NCBI RefSeq assembly: GCF_029953635.1
Contig: NZ_CP124543.1
Coordinates: 3,947,455-4,011,454, forward strand
Source: Halotia branconii CENA392
Lineage (GTDB): Bacteria > Cyanobacteriota > Cyanobacteriia > Cyanobacteriales > Nostocaceae
Direction: 5' to 3'
Length of the DNA stretch: 64,000 nt
Under the pieces are notes generated by a model. It did no database searches and had not been told where the DNA came from. It saw only the letters and a list, made by a program, of their open reading frames with translations. Positions 15,735 through 17,460 of this stretch are shown here, in pieces (within the stretch, counting starts at the first letter, position 1; each line of letters begins with the position of its first letter). The position numbers were made by a program, and so were the translations under genes.

Positions 15735-16115
15735 TTAATTTTCCGAAGGGTTGGCTGGCGTTTGAGTGTCGAAATATTCACGCCATCGACTGATATAACC
15801 ATCTTGGAAATCGATAACAATAACATCGTGGGCTTTGTTACGATGACCTGTAGCTTTTTCAGTATCTTCATAATGCCACTCAACTGCGGCTTGATTATGG
15901 TCAATCAAAATCCGTTTAATATCAATTTTTACATTTGTATATTGTTGAACAAAATTAGTAATCTCTTCTCGAATTTTTGTTCTTCCTTGCCATTTTTTAC
16001 CCGGCAAAATAATTTCACCATCTGCTGTAAACATTTGTGTAATAGCATCAGCGTCTTGATTAACCCAAGCATGTCTCGCTTTTTCAATTAAAGTCATAAT
16101 TTCTTGTTGATTCAT
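15735..16115 (-). CDS. SnoaL/NTF2-like protein
   Basis: 126 residues from the ATG at 16115; an in-frame TTG lies upstream at 16151. The sequence TLIEKARHAWVNQDADAITQMFTADGEIILPG with GKKWQGRTKIREEITNF is the usual opening of the NTF2-like cone fold (SgcJ/EcaC/SnoaL), and AVEWHYEDTEKATGHRNKAHDVIVIDFQDG is the second half. Proteins of this type act as small cyclases, isomerases or binding proteins. No substrate is implied by context: it lies alone beside a long spacer that holds a candidate RNA. Confidence 0.8.
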   Translation of the reverse strand: MNQQEIMTLIEKARHAWVNQDADAITQMFTADGEIILPGKKWQGRTKIREEITNFVQQYTNVKIDIKRILIDHNQAAVEWHYEDTEKATGHRNKAHDVIVIDFQDGYISRWREYFDTQTPANPSEN

Positions 16116-17000
16116 ATTATTTCGATTTGCGAATGCCGGATCATTTAACAATTTTATATATAGGAATGCTGTTGTAATTCTTAGGGTTAGACAGTATTTA
16201 TATGAATCATTTTAAAAATAACTATTTTGTGGTTTTCAATGTAACTTACTTAAAACATGATATAGGACTCCTATTTGATTTTTGAACACGATTCAGTACA
16301 TATCTATCTCTTCTTAACTGTTCCCTGTTTCCTGTTTCCTGTTCCCTACCTACACAAATAAATTCACCGAATCAAACCGGATTACTATATCAAGAGAACA
16401 CTAACCAGAGATAGGTAATAGCAATCAAGACAGTTATTTCTTCAGTTTGACTATGGTTATTCCCCAAGAGAGACTAACTTTCAGTTTTGAAATTGCTATT
16501 GTTATTACATAACAGTTTAGTACTGGATGGGTGTTATGCCGCTGTGACCCATTGTCGTGTATCCAAGGAGAGCGATCGCAGATACATGGACAGTACTAGA
16601 GAATAACTCAGCAACTTGTGGAGTTTTTATCGCTTCCTCCACTTTGTTACCACCAAGGGAAGGCTAAACCCTTCATCAGAGCGGTCTGAGGTGGTAAAGA
16701 GCTAGTGTTTTTCGGTAGTTTCTTAAAATTATTTAAGTTGCTCTACTATTTAATCTGCTTTCGTTCACTTGATGAATGAAGGCAGTTTAGCTATTAAAAA
16801 ACTGCGATCGCAGTCAGTATTCAGTATTTTGTATTTTTACCACTAAGACACAAAGATGAAGAAGGGTTTTTGGGGTGTAAATGCGATCGCCTTTTCTCCC
16901 TGCCCACTGAGCGACTTGTACTGAGCGTAGTCGAAGTAGGCCGAAGTGCTGCCCCTCTGCTCCCTGCTTCTTTTGACCCCTAACTCTTAAAATAGGAACT
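16116..17000. other. Long gene-free spacer with structured-RNA candidate and repeats
   Basis: No credible gene. It holds TTCCTGTTTCCTG-type repeats (about 16319-16348), the two three-way junctions (16518-16598 and 16647-16697), and a palindromic repeat (about 16905-16970) with CACTGAGCGACTTGTACTGAG between pyrimidine tracts. An open frame on the minus strand at 16814-17077 overlaps this repeat and is not supported. Confidence 0.7.
16518..16712 (+). ncRNA. Candidate structured RNA with two three-way junctions
   Basis: First junction: outer stem TAGTACTG (16518-16525)/CAGTACTA (16591-16598), enclosing ATGGGT/ACCCAT (16527-16532, 16547-16552) and TGTATC/GATACA (16558-16563, 16581-16586). A small stem AACTC/GAGTT (16605-16625) followed by TTTTAT lies between. 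Second junction: outer stem TTACCACC/GGTGGTAA (16647-16654, 16690-16697), enclosing AAGGG/CCCTT and TCAGA-GCGG-TCTGA. CACT (16641) and AGTG (16704) could extend the outer stem, and TTTTT follows. The U-run suggests a plus-strand transcript. No Rfam family was recognised, and expression is unproven. Confidence 0.4.
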
Positions 17001-17417
17001 ATGTCTACTAAAAGAGCAGGATTGGAAACTGTGACTACTTCATTTGTGCCTAACTTTGGATCAACAGTAAAACTCAAACCTAGTTACAATATCCCTGTAG
17101 TATTGGTGATTGCAGCCATTCCCTTAGTCTTGGTGCAAGCTTGGTTAGGAGTAGCGATCGCTTTGTTTGGCTTGTTTCTTTTGTTTCAAACTGTAACATT
17201 GTCCTTGCATTTTACCGCCACCGACTTAGATATTTATAGAGGCGAAAAATTACTCCGGCGCTTTCCCTACCAAGAATGGCAAAACTGGCGGATCTTCTGG
17301 AATCCAGTTCCTATACTGTTTTATTTTAAAGAAGTTAAAAGTATTCACTTTTTACCGATTTTGTTTGACCCCAACGCCCTGAAAACTTGCTTAGAAGAAC
17401 GTTGCCCACGAATTTAG
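17001..17417 (+). CDS. DUF3119 family membrane protein
   Basis: 138 residues. After a polar N-terminus there are two closely spaced hydrophobic helices (about residues 30-65: IPVVLVIAAIPLVLVQAWLGVAIALFGLFLLF), then a conserved soluble tail (LHFTATDLDIYRGEKLLRRFPYQEWQNWRIFWNPVPILFYFKE) resembling a PH-like domain. DUF3119 is a cyanobacterial and plastid family without a proven function. The downstream DUF3086 gene follows in the same direction after about 110 bp, which fits co-transcription. Confidence 0.88.
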   Translation: MSTKRAGLETVTTSFVPNFGSTVKLKPSYNIPVVLVIAAIPLVLVQAWLGVAIALFGLFLLFQTVTLSLHFTATDLDIYRGEKLLRRFPYQEWQNWRIFWNPVPILFYFKEVKSIHFLPILFDPNALKTCLEERCPRI

Positions 17418-17460
17418 CTAGGGGCTAGGGGCTAGGGACTAGGGGCTAGGGTGGTGTATT
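17418..17460. repeat. CTAGGGG heptamer repeat with conserved flank
   Basis: Five near-perfect CTAGGGG units (one CTAGGGA) start immediately after the DUF3119 stop codon and are followed by TGGTGTATTCTATCC. The same order, heptamers then GTGGTGTATT, is seen at 13123-13170, so the two are copies of one dispersed repeat unit. Confidence 0.85.

Follow-up and report, generated by a model that had tools for sequence, protein, structure and literature searches.

The stretch from position 16518 to 16712 in 64,000 nucleotides of the Halotia branconii CENA392 genome (the window) is likely to encode one free-standing non-coding RNA, in which two homologous three-way-junction domains would dock on each other through reciprocal loop contacts, with a putative scaffold or protein-binding role for the molecule as a whole. 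The first domain (D1) is the catalogued RNA family CyVA-1 and the second (D2) is a diverged counterpart that is absent from Rfam. Comparison of homologous loci demonstrates the predicted structure, the two reciprocal helices and the co-occurrence of D1 and D2. The features of the locus are collected in Table 1.

Table 1. Features of the two-domain RNA and its surroundings, in window coordinates
Feature	Position	Strand	Basis or remark
SnoaL_2/NTF2-like gene (SgcJ/EcaC family), candidate functional partner	15735–16151	-	PF12680 2.5e-15; TIGR02246 3.3e-19
-10-like box TATTGT, with TTGC just 5'	16497–16502	+	transcription start predicted near 16509
D1, CyVA-1 three-way junction	16518–16598	+	Rfam match 16520–16596
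D1 P1, 5' strand (partner 16591–16598)	16518–16525	+	fold; conserved core 94.2% paired, 5/6 pairs doubly changed
D1 P2 hairpin (16526–16532/16547–16553)	16526–16553	+	fold; 4-bp core 90.2% paired, 4/4 doubly changed
L1, GCCGCT, kissing strand in D1 (partner E3, 16680–16685; helix KA)	16538–16543	+	
D1 P3 arm (16555–16563/16581–16589)	16555–16589	+	8-bp core 95.1% paired, 8/8 doubly changed
L3, GAGCGAT, kissing strand in D1 (partner E1, 16629–16635; helix KB)	16570–16576	+	
D2, diverged CyVA-1-like three-way junction, absent from Rfam	16606–16706	+	D2 covariance model R1, 103.8 bits
D2 P1' outer stem, bulged in the window copy	16606–16612/16701–16706	+	complementarity test
D2 P2' hairpin, GTGGAG/CTCCAC	16618–16642	+	99.7% paired, 4/6 pairs doubly changed
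E1, ATCGCTT, kissing strand in D2 (partner L3; KB)	16629–16635	+	
D2 P3' arm, the second junction of the preliminary description	16647–16697	+	92.8% paired, 8/8 pairs doubly changed
D2 P4' hairpin at the P3' tip, GAAGG/CCTTC	16659–16674	+	97.4% paired, 5/5 pairs doubly changed
E3, AGCGGT, kissing strand in D2 (partner L1; KA)	16680–16685	+	
TTTTT directly 3' of D2, possible 3' end in CENA392	16708–16712	+	sequence

Structure of the locus

The preliminary description of the locus had placed it in a spacer without a gene; no ORF of 50 amino acids or more overlaps it, and neither a tRNA nor a tmRNA was found there. That description had proposed two three-way junctions in tandem, each with an 8-bp outer stem and 5–6-bp inner hairpins, followed by TTTTT. 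Both stems and the T-tract are present: TAGTACTG/CAGTACTA closes the first junction, and TTACCACC/GGTGGTAA, located 48 nt 3' of it, closes a unit of 51 nt that holds two 5-bp hairpins. Two related domains do lie in tandem, but the boundaries and the parse of the second were wrong, the 51-nt unit being only the end of the third arm of D2, P3', rather than a complete junction. One of the proposed inner hairpins, TCAGAGCGGTCTGA, is not conserved; it is 75.7% paired against 75.6% in shuffled columns, its covariation is likewise no higher, and it was dropped.

The spacer had also been called much more structured than the DNA around it. In terms of folding energy its stability is modest, with z-scores against shuffles of -1.99 for the first junction, -2.42 for the second and -1.83 for the whole candidate, and 10 of 200 shuffles of the latter fold equally well. 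With z at about -2, energy alone was abandoned as proof of structure, and it is on covariation that the case for a structured RNA stands. The preliminary description had named a lack of compensatory changes in homologous spacers as grounds for rejection; such changes are clearly present. Across 61 diverse sequences (alignment A1, the basis of the pair statistics) the whole secondary structure is 93.5% paired, and 46 of its 54 pairs are changed on both sides. The minus strand folds no better than the plus strand, and a hammerhead-like CTGATGA on it was discarded on inspection, its core being without the second conserved strand.

Domain 1 and the CyVA-1 family

D1 is matched by Rfam RF02965 (CyVA-1) over the full model (1–77 of 77) with 75 bits, the gathering cutoff being 41.4 bits, and is present as a single copy in the CENA392 genome. 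The locus had been thought to belong to no recognisable family, which is correct for its second half and not for its first. The three-way junction of P1, P2 and P3, the conserved loops and the AAGGAGA motif of the family are all found in D1, as judged from alignment A1 and its pair counts, and AAGGAGA, in the loop of P3, is near-invariant across the alignment. Two loci (L096, the copy in G009, and L067, the second copy in G129) carry inserts of about 24–28 nt with a GTGTCC..GGACA hairpin in loop 3 of D1, at one shared site just 5' of AGGAGA/AGAAGA.

CyVA-1 is a catalogued family without a known function. Its name refers to Cyanobacteria, Verrucomicrobia and Acidobacteria, and thus to an occurrence outside Cyanobacteria; matches in a pattern scan came from cyanobacteria and from one MAG labelled Gracilibacteria. 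No mention of RF02965 by number was found in the literature searched, whereas CyVA-1 is mentioned by name in one paper, which reports its transcript from halite cyanobacteria (PMC7002113). The Rfam model corresponds to D1 only, and its consensus line leaves L1 and L3 unpaired; here a second domain is added and the two loops become halves of kissing helices.

Domain 2

The true junction of D2 is made of the outer stem P1', the hairpin P2' and, as its third helix, the TTACCACC/GGTGGTAA arm. A total of 91 loci from the family and 21 from the wider phylum were inspected, one of the latter (in G426) being a false match, and the D2 loci show P1', P2' with its loop E1, and a P3' on which the motif E3 and one additional hairpin, P4', are found. 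The register of P1' shifts by a base among sequences, so this stem was tested separately, giving a complementarity of 5.2 bp against 3.9 bp with shuffled partners (shuffle maximum 4.3).

In several genomes D2 is matched by the CyVA-1 model weakly, yet from end to end, the highest score being 40.2 bits (E 1.2e-7); for the D2 of the window the model gives no match at E<=5. Even the best of these relatives stays just below the family cutoff, so that D2 does not by itself count as a CyVA-1 member. On this comparison D2 is homologous to D1 but falls outside CyVA-1 as Rfam draws it.

Co-occurrence of the two domains

When the DNA of 16600–16730 is used as a query, matches are found in 57 of 192 genomes of the same family, nearly all beside CyVA-1, the few exceptions being two short partial matches. 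CyVA-1 itself is present in 64 of these 192 genomes; a covariance model of D2 alone places D2 in 63, and every genome with D2 has CyVA-1. Within a sample of 386 genomes from the phylum, D2 occurs in 29, namely all 28 genuine CyVA-1 genomes and one with D2 only. No plasmid relatives were found, nor was the exact D2 pattern found in viral contigs.

Departures from the paired arrangement were seen at several loci. One D2 without D1 (L190, in G424), the sole clear orphan seen, lies directly 3' of a protein-coding gene. Three CyVA-1 copies of one genus (L082, L084 and L099) have no D2 downstream, and each of their genomes also holds a complete two-domain copy. Another set of paralogues of the two-domain RNA (L191–L195, L097 and L098) has kept helix KA and apparently lost KB, and in several cases a gene for a GlsB/YeaQ-like small membrane protein adjoins it.

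Reciprocal kissing helices

The two cross-domain helices, KA between L1 and E3 and KB between L3 and E1, comprise 13 bp. These are 96.6% paired in the 61 sequences, compared with 89.1% in shuffles and 33–56% when the strands are slid, and 8 of the 13 pairs are changed on both sides, four in KA (95.6% paired) and four in KB (97.4% paired). The covariation score is 0.379, and neither the observed pairing nor the double changes nor this score is attained in any of 500 shuffles; one further measure, the count of pair types, does not exceed the shuffles. L1/E3 occurs as ACCGTT/AACGGT, GCCGCT/AGCGGT, GCTGTT/AACAGC and ATCGTT/AACGAT, and in one sequence from another family as CCACT/AGTGG, while E1/L3 occurs as GTCGCTT/GAGCGAC, ATCGCTT/GAGCGAT and GCCGTTT/GAACGGC. 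A tree inferred from the remaining columns, with those of the kissing helices left out, requires at least ten independent switches at one kissing pair and six at another. Matching loops are still seen where the linker between D1 and D2 extends to about 270 nt.

Promoter, transcript ends and gene context

Upstream of the RNA, TANNNT boxes peak at a single distance (box end at -16), where they occur at 19 of 88 non-redundant loci against a mean of 3 per position, within an upstream consensus of AGAatGA...TtGcTAtT.T. A dedicated promoter for the RNA is probable, since this -10-like box sits at a fixed distance in a conserved upstream block; a generic sigma-70 scan did not call the TATTGT box. At the other end no conserved terminator was seen, and the enrichment in T is not kept in relatives. 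No common downstream gene family was found of the kind that would place the RNA among cis leaders or riboswitches. The promoter-like region and the lack of a consistent downstream gene together make a free-standing RNA the most likely arrangement. Further along, in the spacer 3' of the DUF3119 gene, short direct repeats of the CTAGGGGCTAGGGACTAGGGG type occupy 17419–17450.

Association with an NTF2/SnoaL-like protein

A SnoaL_2/NTF2-like gene lies within 8 kb of the RNA at 34 of the 91 family loci, within 1.5 kb at 33 of them, and in all four relative orientations; no further matches to distant NTF2-like genes were found near the remaining loci. At E<=1e-15 the gene is present in 45 of the 192 family genomes, all 45 of which also have CyVA-1. 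In the phylum sample CyVA-1 occurs in 14 of the 19 genomes with the gene, compared with 28 of 386 overall. Fisher tests on the co-occurrence of gene and RNA ignore kinship. As a control, an unrelated and patchily distributed FAD monooxygenase of the window is present in 25 of 72 genomes; CyVA-1 accompanies it in 14 of these and occurs in 33 of the 72 overall.

These distributions suggest that the RNA and the NTF2/SnoaL-like protein, which is predicted to be exported, serve one process. Many of the proteins start with an apparent signal peptide, and the link is therefore likely to run more through regulation than through direct binding to a cytosolic RNA. The association is a lead rather than a demonstrated mechanism. 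In the window copy of the gene the signal peptide seemingly has no ATG start.

Alternative interpretations

If CyVA-1 merely stood beside an unrelated hairpin, its first 77 nt alone would matter. Rfam indeed models 77 nt and reports no second part in the window, and a few CyVA-1 copies occur without D2; covariation across the domains at eight pairs contradicts this reading, as do the near-perfect co-occurrence of D1 and D2 and the persistence of matching loops across long linkers, and next to no credence is left for it. It is also very improbable that L1 pairs with L3 and E1 with E3, making each domain an independent pseudoknotted unit. The loop motifs are similar enough for such pairing to be possible, with wobbles, in some sequences, yet it amounts to 84.4% against 83.3% in shuffles, its double changes (4 of 12 pairs) are at about the shuffle level, and one of the pairs, between columns 26 and 64, fails in 45 of the 61 sequences. 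Within-domain pseudoknots were ruled out on this far poorer fit than that of the cross-domain helices. Covariation itself is blind to whether those helices form in cis or in trans, and the pseudo-symmetry of the molecule is compatible with a head-to-tail dimer of two RNAs, the covariation then reflecting an intermolecular duplex; some genomes do have two or more copies. Most have a single copy, with D1 and D2 about 20–35 nt apart, which favours a contact in cis and makes the dimer unlikely.

A cis leader of the next gene, DUF3119 at 17001, might be considered, since this gene is on the same strand and a pair of homologous domains held by tertiary contacts resembles a tandem riboswitch. The gene is, however, about 290 nt away, the downstream gene varies among genomes, and the nearest one is on the opposite strand at 48 loci and on the same strand at 42; such a leader is highly implausible and was rejected on gene context. 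Some weight, albeit with considerable doubt, is given to a trans-acting base-pairing sRNA, in which AAGGAGA or the linker would pair with mRNAs, possibly including the transcript of the NTF2-like gene, with the kissing contacts gating access. The Rfam type 'Gene; sRNA', the stand-alone locus, the exposed and Shine-Dalgarno-like AAGGAGA and the strict co-occurrence with the NTF2-like gene would all fit, but KA and KB use up most of the conserved loop bases. A structured scaffold or protein-binding RNA is more likely than a simple antisense RNA because the loops occupy each other.

Proposed architecture and its implications

In the favoured two-domain model, transcription from the conserved promoter would yield a single RNA of about 190–200 nt. 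D2 would be an ancient duplicate of D1 that has diverged and acquired one more hairpin on its third arm. In each domain the P2 loop would contact the end of the opposite domain's arm 3, forming a kissing helix of 6 to 7 bp, and the two dockings would give a compact, closed ring with pseudo-symmetry, its junctions face to face. This docked shape may present the AAGGA, GUU(U) and UAAA segments, which are unpaired and near-invariant, to a protein or other partner.

Related principles are found in two riboswitches. The tandem glycine riboswitch, a cis leader with a ligand, also consists of two homologous domains in tandem with tertiary contacts; its structure differs, and the CENA392 locus stands on its own, the gene that follows it varying among genomes. 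The Guanidine-II (mini-ykkC) riboswitch is formed of two simple neighbouring hairpins that dock by their loops in a gene leader. It shares the docking of neighbouring elements, whereas the CENA392 RNA has two three-way junctions and two reciprocal kissing helices.

A broader proposal, put forward tentatively, is that CyVA-1 has been studied as a half-molecule and that the whole is a previously undescribed two-domain pseudo-dimer with two reciprocal kissing loops, which may form a functional module with the exported NTF2/SnoaL-like protein across cyanobacteria. The novelty of D2 and of the kissing architecture is judged against the Rfam model and the literature searched, and the first description of CyVA-1 may mention a downstream element. 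If the molecule is indeed twice as long, with its loops engaged as tertiary contacts, then any earlier predictions of targets and structure made with the 77-nt model would have used an incorrect unit as their basis. With its boundaries corrected, with two helices for which compensatory mutations are already laid out by nature and with a co-occurring protein, the RNA would be open to direct tests of its function in laboratory cyanobacteria.
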